DNA of 64,000 bases from Burkholderiaceae bacterium (GTDB taxonomy: Bacteria > Pseudomonadota > Gammaproteobacteria > Burkholderiales > Burkholderiaceae_C). The stretch is from NCBI GenBank assembly GCA_019751915.1, contig JAIEMS010000007.1, positions 1 through 64,000 on the forward strand. Reading direction: 5' to 3'. Positions 5,166 to 33,790 of the stretch are shown here, piece by piece; within the stretch, counting starts at the first letter, position 1; every line of letters starts with the position of its first letter. Position numbers and translations under genes: made by a program. The notes under the pieces were generated by a model. It was not told the DNA's origin and ran no database searches. It was given only the letters and a program-made list of their open reading frames with translations.

Positions 5166-5530
5166 GCCTTGCTGTGATGCCTGTGCACTCGCGCCGCCGC
5201 AACCTCGGTGTGGGCCGAATCAACACACTGCTGCTGCTGTGTGTGCTGGGCAGTGCCTTTTATTTGGTGCGCACCCAATACCAGTCGCGCCTGCTTTACA
5301 CCGCCCTAGACCGGGCGGTGGCCGAGGCGCGCCAGCTCGAAACCGAGCACGAGCGGCTGGAAGTCGAAAAACGCGCCCAAGCCACGCCTTTGCGCGTCGA
5401 GACCATGGCACGCGACAAGTTGTCGATGCAAACGGCCACCCCGGCCATTACCCATTACGTTGCCAATCCGGTGCCCGTTCAGTTGCCATCGCAGGGCGTT
5501 GCACCTGCGCCTGTCAAGGTCAGCCCATGA
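5162..5530 (+). CDS. ftsL: Cell division protein FtsL
   Basis: Small bitopic inner-membrane protein of the FtsQLB complex, which activates septal wall synthesis by FtsWI. The 122-residue product has a short basic N-terminus, one membrane helix ([15 protein letters not shown], about residues 22-37) and a periplasmic coiled coil rich in E/R/L. The C-terminal tail is Pro/Val-rich. FtsL is poorly conserved, so the call leans on size, topology and position between rsmH and ftsI. The GTG start at 5162 overlaps the rsmH stop by four bases and the stop overlaps ftsI in the same way. Confidence 0.9.
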
Positions 5531-7272
5531 GTCGCAGTGTTCTGTATGCGTCCAGCCCCCTGCTGGCGAGCAAAACGCCAGTTTGGCGCAGCAAATTTAT
5601 CGTTGCCCTGATTGGCTTGGGTTTTATTGGCTTGGGCACACGCGCTGCCTATGTGCAGGTGGTGGGCAATGAGTTCTTTCAGCACCAAGGCGAAGTGCGC
5701 TTTGCCCGCACGCTGGAGCTGCCCGCCAACCGGGGCAAAATTGTCGATCGCAACGGCCTGATTTTGGCTTCGAGCGTCCCGGCGGCCAGTATCTGGGCCA
5801 TCCCGGAAGACGTGGACGAAGACGAACCGGGCGTGCCAGCCAAGCTCAAAGAGCTGGCCCGCTTGATTGAGATGCCACTGGCCGAATTGCAGGCCAAACT
5901 GGCCGATGACGACAAAACCTTTGTCTGGCTCAAACGCCAGCTCGACTGGGATGTCGGCCAACAAGTGGCTGCGCTGGGCATCAAGGGCATTTACCAGCGC
6001 AAAGAATACAAGCGCCAGTACCCCGAGGGCGAATCGTCGGCCCACGTTGTCGGTTTTACCAACGTCGAAGACAAGGGCCAAGAAGGTATGGAGTTGGCCT
6101 TCAACGACCTGTTGGCAGGCAAGGCCGGTTCCCGCCGCGTCCTGAAAGACCGCATGGGCCGCGTGGTCGAGGGCATTGGCGAGGACATCTTGCCGCTGGC
6201 TGGGCGCGATATGCAGTTGTCCATCGACAGCAAGGTGCAGTTTTTTGCTTACCAAAAGCTGCGCGACCAAGTGGCTGCGCACAAAGCCAAAGCGGGCAGC
6301 GTGGTGGTGCTCGATGCCGTGACCGGCGAAGTATTGGCACTGGCCAATTACCCCAGTTACTTGCCCGACAAGCGCAAAAACCTGACCGGCGAACAACTGC
6401 GCAACCGCGCCATCACCGACACCTTTGAGCCGGGTTCGACCATGAAGCCGTTCACCATCGGACTGGCGCTCGAATCTGGGCGGGTGCGCCCCGACACCAT
6501 TGTCGATACCAACCCGGGCCGCATCACCATTACCGGATCGACCATTTCCGATACCCACAACTATGGCGTACTGACGGTCGAAGGCGTGATCCAAAAGTCC
6601 AGTAACGTCGGCACCACCAAGCTGGCCATGCAGATGCCCGCGCGCGAGATGTGGGAGACGTTTTCTGCCGCCGGTTTTGGACAAAAACCGCAAATTGGCT
6701 TTCCCGGCGCGGTCAGTGGCCGCTTGCGGCCCTACAAAACGTGGCGGCCGGTCGAGCAAGCCACCATGTCGTATGGCTACGGTTTGTCGGCCAGTTTGTT
6801 CCAGATGGCGCGTTCGTACACGGTGTTTGCCCACAACGGCGAGATCATTCCGGCCACCATGCTCAAGACTTCTGCGCCTGCGGTCGGGGTGCCGGTGTTC
6901 TCGCAGCGCACCGCCGACCAAGTTCGCAAAATGCTGCAAATGGCCGCTGGCCCCGGTGGTACCGGGCAAAAGGCGCAAACCGTTGGTTATTCGGTCGGCG
7001 GAAAGTCCGGTACCGCGCGCAAACAAATCGGTAAAAGCTACGCTGCGGGCAAATACCGGGCGTGGTTTACCGGCATGGCCCCGATTGAAAAGCCCCGCAT
7101 CATCGTGGCGGTGATGATCGACGAACCGAGCAACGGACAGGTGTACGGCGGCTTGGTGGCCGCCCCTGTGTTCAGCGAGGTGGTGCAGCAAACGCTGCGC
7201 ATGATGGGCGTGCAGCCCGATATGAACGTCAAGCCCCAAGTGGCCGCCGAACCCGTCGAGGAGTCGCTCTGA
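5527..7272 (+). CDS. ftsI: Peptidoglycan D,D-transpeptidase FtsI (PBP3)
   Basis: Class B penicillin-binding protein that cross-links peptidoglycan at the septum. The 581-residue product has an N-terminal membrane anchor (about residues 24-42), a PBP dimerisation/pedestal domain and a C-terminal transpeptidase domain. The catalytic triad of motifs is complete: S304-T-M-K307, S358-S-N360 and K493-S-G495. The ATG at 5527 overlaps the ftsL stop (ATGA); longer in-frame upstream starts lie inside ftsL and are rejected. It works with the SEDS polymerase FtsW encoded downstream. Confidence 0.96.
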   Translation: MSRSVLYASSPLLASKTPVWRSKFIVALIGLGFIGLGTRAAYVQVVGNEFFQHQGEVRFARTLELPANRGKIVDRNGLILASSVPAASIWAIPEDVDEDEPGVPAKLKELARLIEMPLAELQAKLADDDKTFVWLKRQLDWDVGQQVAALGIKGIYQRKEYKRQYPEGESSAHVVGFTNVEDKGQEGMELAFNDLLAGKAGSRRVLKDRMGRVVEGIGEDILPLAGRDMQLSIDSKVQFFAYQKLRDQVAAHKAKAGSVVVLDAVTGEVLALANYPSYLPDKRKNLTGEQLRNRAITDTFEPGSTMKPFTIGLALESGRVRPDTIVDTNPGRITITGSTISDTHNYGVLTVEGVIQKSSNVGTTKLAMQMPAREMWETFSAAGFGQKPQIGFPGAVSGRLRPYKTWRPVEQATMSYGYGLSASLFQMARSYTVFAHNGEIIPATMLKTSAPAVGVPVFSQRTADQVRKMLQMAAGPGGTGQKAQTVGYSVGGKSGTARKQIGKSYAAGKYRAWFTGMAPIEKPRIIVAVMIDEPSNGQVYGGLVAAPVFSEVVQQTLRMMGVQPDMNVKPQVAAEPVEESL

Positions 7273-27849: not shown

Positions 27850-29484
27850 TCACCCAGCGCTCAGCAGCGAGACCGGGCGGGGAACGACATCGATGGGGGC
27901 CTCGTCTTGCGCATAGGGCAAGACAAACTGGCTAATCAATCTGGCAAGTTCTTGGGCTTGGTGGTGTAGGCACTCGGAGGCGGCGGTCGATTCTTCCACC
28001 AGTGCCGAGTTTTGCTGCGTCATTTGATCGAGCTTTGCCACGGCATGGTTAATTTGGCCCAAATCTTGGTTTTGCGCCTGCGTTGCCGTGGTGATTTCCG
28101 TAATCATCTGGGCCGCGTCGTGAATCGAGGTCACGATGTCGGCCATCGTTGCACCGGCATCATTGACCAAAACCGAGCCTGCCTTGACCTGCTCGACCGA
28201 GGCACCAATCAGGCTTTTGATTTCGTGGGCCGCCGCTGCCGAGCGCGTTGCCAAGGAGCGCACCTCGCTGGCGACCACCGCAAAGCCCCGACCTTGTTCA
28301 CCGGCGCGGGCGGCTTCGACGGCAGCGTTGAGCGCCAAAATGTTGGTCTGAAAAGCAATGCCATCGATCACGCCGATGATGTCGACGATTTTGGCCGAGG
28401 ATTGCTCAATGCCCTCCATGGTAGAAACCACCCGCCCCATCACGGCACCGCCTTGTTCAGCCACCGTTGCGGCTGCAACGGCCATGGTTTGAGCGCGACT
28501 GGCAGCATTGGCCGACTGCATCACCCGGTCGGTGATTTGCTCTAGAGATGCAGCAGTTTCTTGCAGGCTGGCGGCAGTTTCTTCGGTGCGGGTTGATAAA
28601 TCGACATTGCCGGTGGCGATTTCGGACGACGCTGCCCGGATGCTTTGGGCCGAAAAGCGCACTTGCGTCACCAAACCGCGCAGAGAATCTTGCATCACCG
28701 ACAGCGACGTCAACATCAAGCCCGCCTCGTCGCGGCTGTGGCCGGTGATGTCGTGGCGCAAGTCCAGCCGCGCTACGCGGTCTGCGGTGGCACTGGCGGT
28801 GGCGATGGGGCGGCTAATGCTGCGCACCAGCCACAGCGCCAGCACAGCACCCAGTGCCAATGCCAAGGCGCTGAAGGCCAACAGACCCCAGCGGGCTTGG
28901 TTGCTTTGCTGGGTGATGGTGTGGTCATCGGCATCGATGGCGTTGCGCTGCGATTGGGTCAACTCTCCCAGCGTCGTTTGTAAAGCACCCGATGCAGGCA
29001 TAAACCTTTCGGTGTAAACCTGCTGAATGCGCGAAGTCAGCCCTGAATCGCGGGCGGCCACCAATTCGGTACGAGCGGCGGTGAAGTCTTTTTCGGCAGC
29101 GTGCACACGGCCCAAAATCTGCCGGTCGGCATCGGTCTGTAGCTGCTGCGCTACCTGGTTCATCAGGTTGTCGTAGGTTTTTTGGGTAGCGGCAATGTCA
29201 GCGCCCAAAATTTCGCCCACTTCAGGCTCAGAACTCAGCGCCACTGCTTTATAGCGCTCGGCATTGATGGCTTGGGCGCGGTAAGCGTCCGCCACCAAGC
29301 GCTCGGTGGCAACGCTTTGCCCGACCAGATGTGCTGTGGTGGCGTTGATCTGTTGCAGCGACCAAAAACCGATGGTCGAACCCATCAGGGCCAGCAAAAG
29401 CACCGCCACAAAGGCAGTCAACAGGCGTTTACCCAAGCTGCCCAAAGCAGTGGGCGTTGGGGAGGCTAATGTGGAGGTGAGCAT
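27850..29484 (-). CDS. Methyl-accepting chemotaxis protein
   Basis: Transmembrane chemoreceptor. The 544-residue product has TM1 (about 20-42), a periplasmic four-helix-bundle sensor, TM2 (about 197-222), HAMP and a full cytoplasmic signalling domain. The hairpin tip is canonical: [20 protein letters not shown] followed by [12 protein letters not shown]. Gln/Glu pairs in [16 protein letters not shown]-type helices are likely methylation sites. The ligand is unknown. The C-terminus has no CheR-tether pentapeptide. Its upstream region (29485-29757) is shared with the divergent ATP-grasp gene. Confidence 0.92.
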
Positions 29485-29636: not shown

Positions 29637-29676
29637 GGACGTTTCGGGCACTGTCTGGCGCTGACCCCTGTGCCAT

Positions 29677-29691
29677 GCACCAAAACGATGC
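29677..29691 (+). promoter_or_regulatory. NtrC-like dyad, proximal site
   Basis: GCACCAAAACGATGC matches GCACCA-N3-TGGTGC at 10 of 12 informative positions. It is 55 bases (start to start) from the distal site, about five helical turns, so both would lie on the same face of the DNA. Confidence 0.5.
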
Positions 29692-29711
29692 AAGGGCTAC
29701 CCCACCAGTGT

Positions 29712-29726
29712 GGGCACAGTCCTTGC
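29712..29726 (+). promoter_or_regulatory. Sigma-54 promoter for the Anbu/ATP-grasp cluster
   Basis: GGGCAC-AGTCC-TTGC fits the RpoN consensus TGGCAC-N5-TTGC at nine of ten positions, including the essential GG and GC doublets with correct spacing. Transcription would start near 29738, twenty bases before the ATG at 29758. Together with the two NtrC-like dyads it predicts induction by nitrogen limitation. Confidence 0.6.
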
Positions 29727-29757
29727 GTAAGCCTAGGTTCTAGCCGACGGAGTTCCC

Positions 29758-31185
29758 ATGCACGCATTGACCTTACCCGCTGCGGACCATTACGACGAGA
29801 TGCTGCTCCCCAGCGGAGCCATCCGGCCGCATTACCAACCCTTTGCCAATTGGCTGCACGCGCAAACGCCGCAGGCATTGGCGAAAAAGCGCTCCGAAGC
29901 CGATTTGCTGTTCCACAAGGTCGGCATCACCTTTGCCGTTTATGGCGACGAGGCTGGTGCCGAGCGCTTGATTCCGTTTGACACCGTGCCGCGCATCGTG
30001 CCATCGGACGAATGGAAAATGCTAGAAGCGGGCTTGCGCCAGCGGGTCACGGCGCTGAACCGCTTTTTGTGGGACATCTACCATGAGCACAACATCATCA
30101 AGGCGGGGCTGATTCCAGCCGAGCAGGTGTTTGCCAACGCCCAGTACCAACCAGCGATGCAAGGCCTTGATTTGCCGCACGGTATTTACGCCCACATCAC
30201 CGGGGTCGATTTGATTCGCCACTCCGACGGCGGCTACTACGTGCTGGAAGACAACCTGCGCGTGCCCTCGGGCGTGAGCTACATGCTAGAAAACCGCAAA
30301 ATGATGATGCGGTTGTTTCCCGAGTTGTTTGCCCGCTACCCGATCGCTCCAGTGGCGCATTACCCGACCTTGCTGCTCAATACCCTGCGCCACTCCAGCG
30401 AAGTGGACAACCCCACCGTGGTGGTGCTGACACCGGGGCCGTGCAATTCGGCCTATTTTGAGCATGCGTTCTTGGCCCAGCAAATGGGGGTCGAGTTGGT
30501 CGAAGGACAAGACCTGTTTGTCAAAGACGACTACCTCTATATGCGCACCACCGTCGGGGCCAAGCGGGTCGATGTGATCTACCGGCGCATTGACGATGCC
30601 TTTTTGGATCCCCTGGCCTTCAACGCCGACTCGATGCTGGGCGTACCGGGGCTGCTGTCGGTTTACAAACAGGGCCACCTGATTTTGGCCAATGCCATTG
30701 GTACCGGCGTGGCCGACGACAAATCGATTTACCCCTATGTGCCCGACATGATTCGGTTCTACTTGAACGAAGAGCCGATTTTGCACAACGTGCCGACGTG
30801 GCAGTGCCGCAAACCCGACGACTTAGCCCATGTGCTCGAGCACATGGCCGAGTTGGTGGTTAAAGAAGTGCACGGCGCTGGTGGCTACGGTATGTTGGTC
30901 GGGCCTGCATCAACGGCGGCGGAAGTTGAGGATTTTAAAGAACGGGTGCGGGCCAACCCGAGCAACTACATTGCCCAACCGACGCTGTGCCTGTCGAGTT
31001 GCCCGACCTTTGTCGAGAGTGGCATTGCGCCGCGCCACATCGACCTGCGCCCCTTTGTGCTCAGTGGCCGCGAGGTCTCGATGGTCGCTGGTGGCCTGAC
31101 GCGTGTGGCCTTAAAGCAAGGCTCACTGGTGGTTAATTCGTCCCAAGGTGGTGGCACCAAGGACACTTGGATTCTGGAGTCCTGA
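29758..31185 (+). CDS. Circularly permuted ATP-grasp protein (predicted peptide ligase)
   Basis: The 475-residue product belongs to the circularly permuted ATP-grasp family (formerly DUF404/DUF407). These are predicted amidoligases that join amino acids or peptides using ATP. Blocks seen are TFAVYGDEAGAERLIPFD, VTALNRFLWDIYHE, YYVLEDNLRVPSGVSYMLEN, VVKEVHGAGGYGMLVGP and DLRPFVLSGREVSMVAGGLT with the ending SQGGGTKDTWIL. ATG 29758 follows GGAG. It leads a four-gene set with alpha-E, transglutaminase and Anbu genes, and the alpha-E start follows one base after its stop. The biochemical product is not established for this family as far as I know. Confidence 0.9.
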   Translation: MHALTLPAADHYDEMLLPSGAIRPHYQPFANWLHAQTPQALAKKRSEADLLFHKVGITFAVYGDEAGAERLIPFDTVPRIVPSDEWKMLEAGLRQRVTALNRFLWDIYHEHNIIKAGLIPAEQVFANAQYQPAMQGLDLPHGIYAHITGVDLIRHSDGGYYVLEDNLRVPSGVSYMLENRKMMMRLFPELFARYPIAPVAHYPTLLLNTLRHSSEVDNPTVVVLTPGPCNSAYFEHAFLAQQMGVELVEGQDLFVKDDYLYMRTTVGAKRVDVIYRRIDDAFLDPLAFNADSMLGVPGLLSVYKQGHLILANAIGTGVADDKSIYPYVPDMIRFYLNEEPILHNVPTWQCRKPDDLAHVLEHMAELVVKEVHGAGGYGMLVGPASTAAEVEDFKERVRANPSNYIAQPTLCLSSCPTFVESGIAPRHIDLRPFVLSGREVSMVAGGLTRVALKQGSLVVNSSQGGGTKDTWILES

Positions 31186-31186
31186 G

Positions 31187-32155
31187 ATGCTGTCACGTAC
31201 TGCTGCCCAACTCTTCTGGATGAGCCGCTACCTTGAGCGCGCTGAAAATCTGGTGCGCATGCTCGATGTGACGCACTCGCTGTCGCTGTTGCCCCAGTCG
31301 CGCGGTGCCATGACCGAGTTTGCCGCGCCGCTGGCCGTCACGGGTACGCTCGATCCGTACATCGCCCAGCACCGCAAGCTCGATGGCGAGGCGCTGTTTC
31401 ATTACATGGCGCTGGATTTAGAAAACCCGGCCTCGGTGCTGTCGTGCCTGAAATTGGCCCGCGAAAACGCCCACGCCGTGCGCGGCAAGATTACCGCTGA
31501 GATGTGGGAAGCCATCAATGCCAGTTGGCTCGAAGCGCGTGAAATGCCCAAGCGCGGCATTACCGATGTATCGGGCTTTTTCGACTGGATCAAAGAGCGC
31601 TCGCACCTGTTTCGCGGGGCCACCTATGGCACTTTGCAGCGCAACGATGCCTATTGCTTTATCCGTTTGGGTACTTTTATTGAGCGCGCTGACAACACCG
31701 CGCGGCTGCTGGATGTGAAGTCGCAATTGATCGAACCCGCCGTAGCGGGCTTGGTGCCCGTCAATGTGCCGCAAGAAAGCGCCCCCGAGTTTTACGCTTG
31801 GAGTGCGCTGCTGCGTTCGCTGTCGGCCTTTGAGGCCTACCACGAGGTGTACCGCGATGCCTTGGACGGCAGGCGCGTGACAGAACTGTTGATTTTGCGC
31901 CCCGATGTGCCGCGCAGCCTGCGCGCCTGCTGCGACGAAATTCGCACCATCTTGCCGCAAATCGAATCGTTGCCCGGCTCCTGCGATGCGGGCCGCGAGG
32001 TCAAGCTGCTGGCAGGTAAGCTGGCGTTGCAACTCGAATATGGTGCCGTCGATGAAATTCTGGACGCTGGCGTACACCGCTGGCTGACCGAGTTTTTGGC
32101 CCAGTCTGCACGCTTGGGGGATGCTATTGGCAAGGCTTACCTCGAAGCCAATTAG
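31187..32155 (+). CDS. Alpha-E domain protein (DUF403)
   Basis: The 322-residue all-helical product starts MLSRTAAQLFWMSRYLERAENLVRM-like (about residues 1-25), the diagnostic opening of alpha-E proteins with its acidic E-R-A-E motif. It then has FIRLGTFIERADNTARLLD. Alpha-E proteins are almost always encoded next to circularly permuted ATP-grasp genes and are proposed partners in the same peptide-forming pathway; no activity is proven. The start lies one base after the ATP-grasp stop (TGAG-ATG). Confidence 0.9.
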   Translation: MLSRTAAQLFWMSRYLERAENLVRMLDVTHSLSLLPQSRGAMTEFAAPLAVTGTLDPYIAQHRKLDGEALFHYMALDLENPASVLSCLKLARENAHAVRGKITAEMWEAINASWLEAREMPKRGITDVSGFFDWIKERSHLFRGATYGTLQRNDAYCFIRLGTFIERADNTARLLDVKSQLIEPAVAGLVPVNVPQESAPEFYAWSALLRSLSAFEAYHEVYRDALDGRRVTELLILRPDVPRSLRACCDEIRTILPQIESLPGSCDAGREVKLLAGKLALQLEYGAVDEILDAGVHRWLTEFLAQSARLGDAIGKAYLEAN

Positions 32156-32188
32156 CCCTATTTTTTCACGCCCCGCAAGGAGAACACC

Positions 32189-32998
32189 ATGCACTTGGTC
32201 ATCGCTCACGAGACTGTTTATCGCTATGACAGGCTGGTCAAGCGCAGTACGCAGTACCTGCGACTGACACCGCGCCCCGGTCACGGGCTGAAAGTGCTGT
32301 CTTGGCAATTGACGCTGCCCGCACCCGCATCGCGTTGCTTGGATGCCTACGGCAACATCATGCATGTGCTCACGCTGGACAAGCCCGTCAGCGAAATTCA
32401 CCTGATTGCCCGTGGCGAGGTGGAAACCGACGACACCCCCCCGACCCCCGACCCCGAAGACGATCTGCCCGCCGAGCTGTTTTTGCGTGACTCGCCATTG
32501 ACGCGTGCCGATGCCGCACTGCGCGAGTTTGCCCAAGGCCATGCGGTGGCGGTAGCGCTAGACCCCTTGGCGGGGCTGTTGCAAATGATGCAGGCCTTGG
32601 TGATGGTGATGCACTACACCCCCGGCACCACCGATGCGGCCACGCCAGCGGCGCAGGCTTTTGCCAGCGGTCACGGTGTTTGCCAAGACCATGCACAGGT
32701 TTTTGCCACCTGTGCGCGCTTGCTGGGCCTGCCTGCGCGCTACGTCAGCGGCTATTTGGCGGCAGACACTGAACACGTTGCCAGCCACGCGTGGGCCGAG
32801 GTGCGCTTGCCCCAAGGTTGGTTGGGTTTTGATGTCTCCAACCAGTGTTTGGCCGATGGCCGCTACGTCCGGCTGGCAATAGGTGCCGACTATGCCGATG
32901 CTTGCCCGGTGCGCGGTATGCGCTTGGGCGGAGGGGTCGAGCAACTGCACACTGCGGTGCAAGTGAGTCTGGGTGAAAAGCCACCCGATGAGCAATAA
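32189..32998 (+). CDS. Transglutaminase-like cysteine protease
   Basis: The 269-residue product has an N-terminal bacterial transglutaminase-like beta domain (YRYDRLVKRSTQYLRLTPR) and a core domain with the papain-like triad C165 (GHGVCQDHAQ), H200 (ASHAWAEV) and D215 (GFDVSN). There is no signal peptide, so it acts in the cytosol. In gene clusters of this type it is predicted to cleave or transfer the peptide or isopeptide made by the ATP-grasp enzyme. AAGGAGA precedes the ATG at 32189. Confidence 0.9.
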   Translation: MHLVIAHETVYRYDRLVKRSTQYLRLTPRPGHGLKVLSWQLTLPAPASRCLDAYGNIMHVLTLDKPVSEIHLIARGEVETDDTPPTPDPEDDLPAELFLRDSPLTRADAALREFAQGHAVAVALDPLAGLLQMMQALVMVMHYTPGTTDAATPAAQAFASGHGVCQDHAQVFATCARLLGLPARYVSGYLAADTEHVASHAWAEVRLPQGWLGFDVSNQCLADGRYVRLAIGADYADACPVRGMRLGGGVEQLHTAVQVSLGEKPPDEQ

Positions 32999-33046
32999 GC
33001 ACCGCAGGGGATAATTCCGCCGATTCAATGCGCTTTTTTTCTCACC

Positions 33047-33790
33047 ATGACCTACTGTGTTGCCATGCGGCTGGATGCCGGCCTGCTGTTTGCCTCGGAC
33101 TCGCGTACCAACGCTGGTGTCGATCACATCGCCACCTTTCGCAAAATGAGCCTCTTTGAGGTGCCCGGCGAGCGCCTGATTGTGCTGCTCAGTGCGGGCA
33201 ACCTTGCCACGACCCAAAGCGTTGTCAGCTTGCTGCGCCAGCGCTTGGCGCACAAAGGGGTGCCCGAGGGCGAGCACCTGAACAATCGGGCCTCGATGTA
33301 CGACGTGGCCGAACTGGTGGGCCGCACGGTCAAAGAAATCGTCGCCCGCGATGCCAATGCCCAAAGTTTGGGGCAGGGCGTTGATTTTGGTGGCAATTTT
33401 TTGGTCGGTGGACAAATTCGCGGCGAGGAGCCGCGCCTGTTCCATGTCTATGCCCAAGGCAACTTCATCGAAGCCTGCGACGACACGCCGTATTTCCAGA
33501 TTGGCGAATCCAAATACGGCAAGCCGATCATCGACCGGGTCATTCGCAACAACACTTCGCTGAAAGAGGCGGCCAAATGCACGTTGATCTCGTTTGATTC
33601 GACGATTCGCAGCAACCTCTCGGTCGGCTTGCCGATTGATATGTTGCTGTACCGCGCCGGCTCTTTTGCCAAGGCTGAACCCCACCGCATCGGTGCCGAT
33701 GACCCTTACTTCACCAAGCTCAGTCGCGGCTGGGGCGAGGGGCTGCGGCGCACCTTTTCTAAGCTGCCCGACGAGGACTGGTTTCGTTAA
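33047..33790 (+). CDS. Anbu / BPH proteasome-homologue peptidase
   Basis: The 247-residue product is an Ntn-hydrolase of the Anbu family (ancestral beta subunit, also called betaproteobacterial proteasome homologue). The presumed nucleophile is Thr2, exposed after removal of Met1. MTYCVAMRLDAGLLFASDSR with its RTNAGVD continuation resembles a proteasome beta subunit, and the FGGNFLVGGQ block is typical. Known members form open helical or ring assemblies rather than closed barrels. It ends the ATP-grasp/alpha-E/transglutaminase set, 48 bases after the transglutaminase stop. No ATPase partner is nearby. It is convergent with ruvC, three bases apart. Confidence 0.92.
   Translation: MTYCVAMRLDAGLLFASDSRTNAGVDHIATFRKMSLFEVPGERLIVLLSAGNLATTQSVVSLLRQRLAHKGVPEGEHLNNRASMYDVAELVGRTVKEIVARDANAQSLGQGVDFGGNFLVGGQIRGEEPRLFHVYAQGNFIEACDDTPYFQIGESKYGKPIIDRVIRNNTSLKEAAKCTLISFDSTIRSNLSVGLPIDMLLYRAGSFAKAEPHRIGADDPYFTKLSRGWGEGLRRTFSKLPDEDWFR

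Follow-up and report, generated by a model that had tools for sequence, protein, structure and literature searches.

An Anbu operon in a Burkholderiaceae bacterium, with an ATP-grasp/alpha-E pair that looks like its core and Anbu as an optional addition

A stretch of 64,000 nucleotides from a Burkholderiaceae bacterium (assembly GCA_019751915.1, contig JAIEMS010000007.1), hereafter the window, carries four consecutive genes encoding a circularly permuted ATP-grasp protein, an alpha-E protein, a transglutaminase-like protein and the proteasome homologue Anbu. That this cluster is the Anbu operon is practically certain. We propose that the cluster probably serves to form and cleave a small molecule with an amide link under nitrogen shortage, and that the ATP-grasp/alpha-E pair looks like the core of the cluster, with Anbu as an optional add-on. 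The features considered are:

29676..29692, plus strand: NtrC-like dyad TGCACC-N5-GATGCA, with one mismatch to TGCACC-N5-GGTGCA
29712..29727, plus strand: sigma-54 type -24/-12 element GGGCACAGTCCTTGCG (GG-N10-GC), with two mismatches, at about -46 from the ATP-grasp ATG
29758..31185, plus strand: predicted circularly permuted ATP-grasp amide ligase of the catalytic type (475 aa; PF14403, 5.9e-166; homologue 3n6x)
31187..32155, plus strand: alpha-E protein (322 aa from the ATG at 31187; PF04168, 4.5e-90)
32189..32998, plus strand: transglutaminase-like cysteine hydrolase/acyltransferase (269 aa; PF08379, PF01841)
33047..33790, plus strand: Anbu (Anbu-1 type), a proteasome-like N-terminal nucleophile (Ntn) hydrolase (247 aa; PDB 5nyw, 8.4e-95)

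Pfam searches, and PDB searches for all but alpha-E, agreed with the four families proposed in a first-pass annotation of this DNA, and the gaps of 1, 33 and 48 bases given there were recovered from the list of open reading frames. That list starts the alpha-E frame at an upstream GTG; the ATG at 31187 was used here. Order and strand are those of the Anbu operon, an agreement far beyond chance. The cluster had been put forward as the best candidate for an undescribed system, a claim contradicted by the literature: these families, arranged in this order, are the subject of PMC6376114 (2017, citing Iyer 2009) and PMC5666114 (Fuchs 2017), which between them report structures, unsuccessful activity assays and expression that depends on nitrogen. 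The window holds a well-preserved copy of this published operon, with nothing essential differing. What is new or sharpened here is the promoter survey, the co-occurrence of the core with an optional Anbu, the alpha-E repeat, the degenerate fusion, the ligase fold and the ancestry of the cluster.

Co-occurrence was assessed in an even draw of 299 genomes from the phylum, each at least 95% complete. PF14403 (ATP-grasp) scored above its cut-off in 172 genomes and PF04168 (alpha-E) also in 172, and these were the same genomes one by one; three extra ATP-grasp matches (G048, G080 and G167) were weak. Anbu was present in 121 of the 299, the window's genome included, and 53 of the 172 genomes carrying the pair had no match to the window's Anbu, a query that may miss distant Anbu proteins. 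Alpha-E was found in 119 of the 121 Anbu genomes (Fisher's test, 4e-38) and in 16 of the 18 whose Anbu has no partner nearby (1e-6), by a test that ignores relatedness.

Apart from the window's, the Anbu genomes number 120 and hold 121 copies of the gene, of which 102 are near a partner, 17 apart and two alone. At least 97 lie within 6 kb of alpha-E among the matches listed, ATP-grasp lies within 3 kb of Anbu in G081 and G135, and a search of 20 doubtful regions revealed ATP-grasp genes near Anbu in G069, G085 and G095. No ATP-grasp or alpha-E gene occurs within about 6.5 kb of the 17 copies apart, which come from 16 genomes (at four of them the searched region ends at a contig edge on one side); within the draw, each of the nine further members of the window's family has Anbu apart. 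Where at least 3 kb of downstream sequence was available (69 loci), transglutaminase follows the pair in 50 and Anbu in 30. The first-pass annotation had regarded the four families as one unit and advised a neighborhood survey; such a survey upholds the constant ATP-grasp/alpha-E pair and not Anbu, which is dispensable and sometimes encoded elsewhere.

Two genomes carry Anbu with neither ATP-grasp nor alpha-E anywhere, G153 (C88:6050-6775) and G289 (C3:571257-571982). A genome of the window's genus that is 100% complete, G013, has Anbu and no PF14403 match, and G002 and G005 have PF14403 and no Anbu.

The promoter elements were scored against what we take to be the NtrC and sigma-54 consensus sequences. 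The NtrC-like dyad is the sole one-mismatch match in the 64 kb (12 matches with up to two mismatches, against 8.2 expected); a 6-base spacer gave nothing above chance, and the 5-base spacer was adopted. By itself, the sigma-54 element of the window does not reach significance, counts being at or below those of shuffles; its significance comes from conservation in relatives. The element also stands at -46 in the close relatives G001 (one mismatch) and G006 (none). We surveyed 76 upstream regions, namely the window and 75 of 80 loci (five lacked the gene start or the full length), using 300 bases upstream and, for the relatives, the first 30 of the gene. A match to the sigma-54 consensus with at most one mismatch occurred in 44 regions, against 0.1 in shuffles and 0.3% of 3000 random stretches of the same loci; with at most two it occurred in 62, against 0.9 and 2.7%. 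The conserved element ahead of the ATP-grasp gene ranges across Beta- and Gammaproteobacteria. Eighteen regions are from Pseudomonas and are non-independent; with these removed by hand, 28 of 58 keep a match with at most one mismatch. A few of the top matches are located well upstream, beyond -170, and hence not every match is a promoter. NtrC-like sites with up to two mismatches were found in 29 of the 76 regions, against 1.7 in shuffles.

In other genomes, at most one sigma-54 mismatch was seen in 17 of 25 additional relatives, and at most two in 7 of 20 genomes outside the window's class, against 0.7 expected. NtrC is encoded in the window's own genome. Among 23 Anbu genes outside the operon (one of which, at L049, lies about 4 kb from a gene for a fused ATP-grasp/alpha-E protein, described below), only two have the element with up to two mismatches. 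Because the promoter accompanies the ligase pair and seldom a lone Anbu, the nitrogen switch appears to belong to the pair, and Anbu can come from elsewhere.

Expression has been measured in relatives. In a B. cenocepacia ntrC mutant, changes of -8.2 (ATP-grasp), -9.4 (alpha-E), -9.4 (transglutaminase) and -6.0 (large transglutaminase) were reported (PMC5491218). Nitrogen limitation in wild-type P. putida gave values of 14.7 for ATP-grasp, 11.0 for PP_2687 and 12.6 for transglutaminase, and only 1.12 for Anbu (PMC7801951, which also cites earlier work with induction of PP_2685, the Anbu gene). The P. putida ATP-grasp promoter (PP_2688) was induced 3.7-fold, whereas that of Anbu was constitutive and nitrogen-independent, although PP_2685 mRNA was higher on nitrate (PMC8050072). 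Independent promoters, which the first-pass annotation had named as evidence against a joint system, are therefore documented for Anbu alone; the ATP-grasp promoter is nitrogen-dependent. Sigma-54 control of Anbu is itself already in print: COG3484 (Anbu) is one of the sigma-54-linked groups in a survey of 2025, and the ATP-grasp and alpha-E COGs were not found in the passages of it that were searched (PMC12316311). An association with urea metabolism has been described in marine metagenomes for DUF403/404/407 and for the transglutaminase N domain (PMC3597751). Overall, we regard nitrogen control of the operon as very probable.

The ATP-grasp protein matches PF14403 (circularly permuted ATP-grasp type 2) with 552 bits against a cut-off of 32, and its solved homologue 3n6x aligns to residues 11-474. 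The motif VVKEVHGAGGYG is in place at residues 367-378, as previously noted. Residues E164, N166 and K369 and the GGYG loop are present and conserved in aligned relatives; carried over from GspS, they presumably bind Mg and ATP. From this alignment the window's protein is predicted to be of the catalytic type, its active site being intact where a loss would have told against the first reading. Release of phosphate from ATP has been published for the Y. bercovieri ATP-grasp protein (PMC6376114). Glutathione synthetase, YgiC and glutathionylspermidine synthetase were the closest folds in a comparison made on a fused relative. Beyond 3n6x, a PDB search with the family gave only two weak matches (E > 0.5), to unrelated chains.

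The alpha-E protein (PF04168, 303 bits) is an internal tandem duplication: profile comparison revealed two repeats, with ER motifs at residues 17-18 and 166-167. E17 and R18 are invariant in 67 sequences. The AlphaFold2 model has a predicted local distance difference test score (pLDDT) of 90, and no solved relative was found by sequence in the PDB up to an E-value of 1. A second protein in which ATP-grasp and alpha-E are fused (type B) is encoded at L145, L149, L155, L174, L180, L190 and L191, and at L190 it adjoins a TG-DUF2126 putative amidoligase. All seven fused proteins have lost the Mg and ATP residues, and judged by these losses the fusion is likely a pseudo-enzyme retained near an active ligase.

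The transglutaminase-like protein matches PF08379 and PF01841 with about 70 bits each and, in the PDB, 3isr (1e-8) and weakly 6g49. Its triad C165/H200/D215, noted earlier, is kept in 45 of 46 closer and all 23 more distant aligned relatives. Anbu matches PF00227 (31.7 bits, cut-off 22.4) and five distinct PDB sequences, all Anbu (one designed), at E-values from 8e-95 to 3e-79, best 5nyw. Counting the Met, its T2 (the Thr2 of the earlier annotation), D18 and K33 are present and equal Thr1, Asp17 and Lys32/33 of the literature (PMC6376114); after Met removal, the N-terminal Thr would be exposed. The S1 pocket (T21, F31, S49, L53, T56) is close to that of Anbu-1 (T20-F30-T48-L52-S55, PMC5666114) and not to the basic Anbu-2 pocket. 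In the 23 loci outside the operon, mostly from the window's family, T2 and D18 are kept throughout. At L151, a single ATP-grasp/alpha-E pair lies between two different Anbu genes, at 2039-2758 and 5486-6199, which share 42% and 55% identity with that of the window. On a Hyphomicrobiales contig (L181:884-4802), Anbu is divergent from the ATP-grasp, alpha-E and transglutaminase genes, and a close sigma-54 match was not found there.

The window's cluster differs in ancestry from those of most genus-mates. In an ATP-grasp tree built from 48 chosen rows, one group unites the window, G001 and G006 with Roseateles, Rubrivivax, PBB2 and G032; Pseudomonas, Enterobacterales and Aquitalea join it next (100/97). 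The only genus-mates otherwise included (G003, G004, G011 and G022) group with Acidovorax and other Comamonadaceae (100/99 among themselves plus Acidovorax). Compared by sequence identity, Anbu shows a like division: two of the 16 genus-mates with Anbu are at 91-92% to the window's protein and 14 at about 50-53%. The genomes of the window, G001, G006 and G032 each carry one ATP-grasp and one Anbu gene, and the separate loci usual for the family were not found in these four. It looks as though the core and Anbu were replaced jointly by a horizontally acquired operon, which would suggest functional coupling of the two.

The genes around the window's cluster are unrelated to it: a divergent methyl-accepting chemotaxis gene and an HD-domain protein upstream, and convergent ruvC downstream. 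The chemotaxis gene (27850-29484, minus strand) and the ATP-grasp gene have their starts 273 bases apart, and between them they share the stretch that holds the NtrC- and sigma-54-like elements. None of the four cluster proteins matched a PADLOC anti-phage defense model at E 0.01, and a defense-system reading was dropped. Neighbor clusters, only partly annotated, were compared at 69 of the 80 loci, 11 near-identical Pseudomonas being excluded, and no conserved fifth partner emerged. After the four families, a TG-DUF2126 putative amidoligase (15 of the 69 loci) and antisense frames, the top neighbor was a ComEC-like competence gene upstream, in 17 loci. One large mixed neighbor cluster covers 18 loci on both strands, its representative having no Pfam match. 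No AAA unfoldase was found among the Pfam-scanned genes beside the window's cluster, the genome as a whole not being searched and the neighbors at the 69 loci being partly annotated. A TgpA-type membrane transglutaminase gene (e.g. L196:4071-6236, minus strand) lies some kb downstream of ATP-grasp/alpha-E in seven of the 69, several of them Comamonadaceae. TgpA-type genes are often paired with a MoxR AAA ATPase.

Taken together, we tentatively envisage an NtrC-switched two-protein amide ligase accompanied by two amide hydrolases, a reading whose chances we place just short of even. The operon would be transcribed from the sigma-54/NtrC promoter, as sequence conservation and published expression in relatives suggest, and would thereby be switched on at nitrogen limitation. 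Their complete co-occurrence, adjacency and natural fusions point to ATP-grasp and alpha-E working jointly as one amide ligase. Judging by fold and conserved residues, this ligase may activate a carboxylate, from a small acid or a peptide, as an acyl phosphate and join it to an amine, in the manner of glutathione synthetase, YgiC and glutathionylspermidine synthetase. Hydrolysis or transfer of that amide could then fall to the transglutaminase-like enzyme (Cys-His-Asp) and to Anbu (N-terminal Thr), which would complete a putative make-and-break cycle for a nitrogen-stress conjugate, with Anbu as an optional hydrolase suppliable from another locus. The earlier idea that the ligase pair builds and the hydrolases process is retained in general terms, its chemistry being conjectural. 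Small-molecule amide chemistry as such we hold to be about as likely as not. A more specific version makes alpha-E an obligate partner subunit (carrier, acceptor-binding or regulatory) in a new two-protein amide ligase whose product is a nitrogen-limitation metabolite, and reads Anbu as the Ntn amidase for this metabolite and not as a protease; this version we hold to be doubtful.

Several points weigh against this proposal. Fuchs et al. favor protein degradation for the open-ring Anbu because proteasome inhibitors bind Thr1 (PMC5666114). Anbu showed no peptidase activity, and the operon proteins of Y. bercovieri did not form a complex in a pull-down (PMC6376114). In P. putida, the operon genes, like urtA-D, were still induced in an rpoN mutant, a misfit with strict sigma-54 dependence (PMC7801951, Table 2). 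At least three sigma-54 mismatches were counted in 14 of the 76 upstream regions, and the NtrC-like motif was not enriched in the 20 genomes outside the window's class. The kinship of the ligase is one of fold only, with the fold computed for the type-B fusion and not for the window's ATP-grasp, the sequence-profile link to E. coli GspS and YgiC having been rejected (hhalign probability 0.2%). Finally, our literature search, which covered few subscription journals, met no report of an operon product or physiological substrate among the papers listed.

Two other explanations were weighed, both improbable in our judgment. In the first, ATP-grasp/alpha-E would put a peptide or amino acid on proteins, the transglutaminase would edit it and Anbu would degrade the tagged proteins, recycling amino acids in nitrogen starvation much as in a Pup-proteasome system. 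In favor of this are the homology of Anbu to 20S/HslV with retention of Thr1, Asp17 and Lys, the binding of epoxomicin and MG132 to Thr1 of the P. aeruginosa protein (PMC5666114), the very probable nitrogen control of the operon and the putative amidoligase of sister loci. Against such tagging stand the absence of a known AAA partner in the excerpts of PMC5666114 and of activity on standard substrates (PMC6376114, PMC5666114), the nearest folds of the ligase, which are enzymes of small molecules and peptides, the core genomes lacking a match to Anbu (distant ones could escape) and the rarity of the promoter before Anbu outside the operon. In the second, Anbu would clear damaged or surplus protein as a protease that needs no ATP, the other three genes being neighbors with an unrelated nitrogen-scavenging role. 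The constitutive Anbu promoter of P. putida (PMC8050072), the many genomes of the window's family with Anbu apart, and G153 and G289 speak for such bulk turnover; the presence of alpha-E in nearly all genomes whose Anbu lacks a partner nearby, and the descent of both core and Anbu from another lineage than in most genus-mates, speak against it. A nitrogen-rich storage peptide, made by the ligase and degraded later, is very improbable: ATP-grasp ligases make storage polymers in other systems and two hydrolases are encoded beside this one, but in relatives the operon is induced when nitrogen is short, the opposite of what building up a nitrogen reserve would call for.

Anbu has been proposed as an ancestor of the proteasome. 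If the ligase pair is the constant, nitrogen-controlled core and Anbu optional, the ligase product under nitrogen limitation should be looked for first, rather than protein substrates of Anbu, and genomes with the core but no Anbu, or with Anbu elsewhere, offer natural controls.

Among known systems, the YgiC/YjfC peptide-spermidine ligases have, to our knowledge, no alpha-E partner. Glutathionylspermidine and trypanothione synthetase/amidases share the ligase fold and join ligase and amidase in one protein; they differ in having no alpha-E and no Ntn hydrolase, their amidase being of another kind, and the GspS ligase has no detectable sequence similarity. In B. cenocepacia, I35_5080-5083 comprises ATP-grasp (DUF404/407), alpha-E (DUF403) and transglutaminase under NtrC as expected for the window, whereas its fourth gene encodes a large transglutaminase-domain protein and not Anbu (PMC5491218). 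The P. putida cluster PP_2685-PP_2688 likewise holds Anbu, transglutaminase, PP_2687 (which we infer to be alpha-E from its place) and ATP-grasp, and is induced by nitrogen limitation; it differs in that expression was measured there and the promoter ahead of Anbu is nitrogen-independent (PMC8050072). The published Anbu operon itself is the closest, sharing with the window the four families, their order and their strand.

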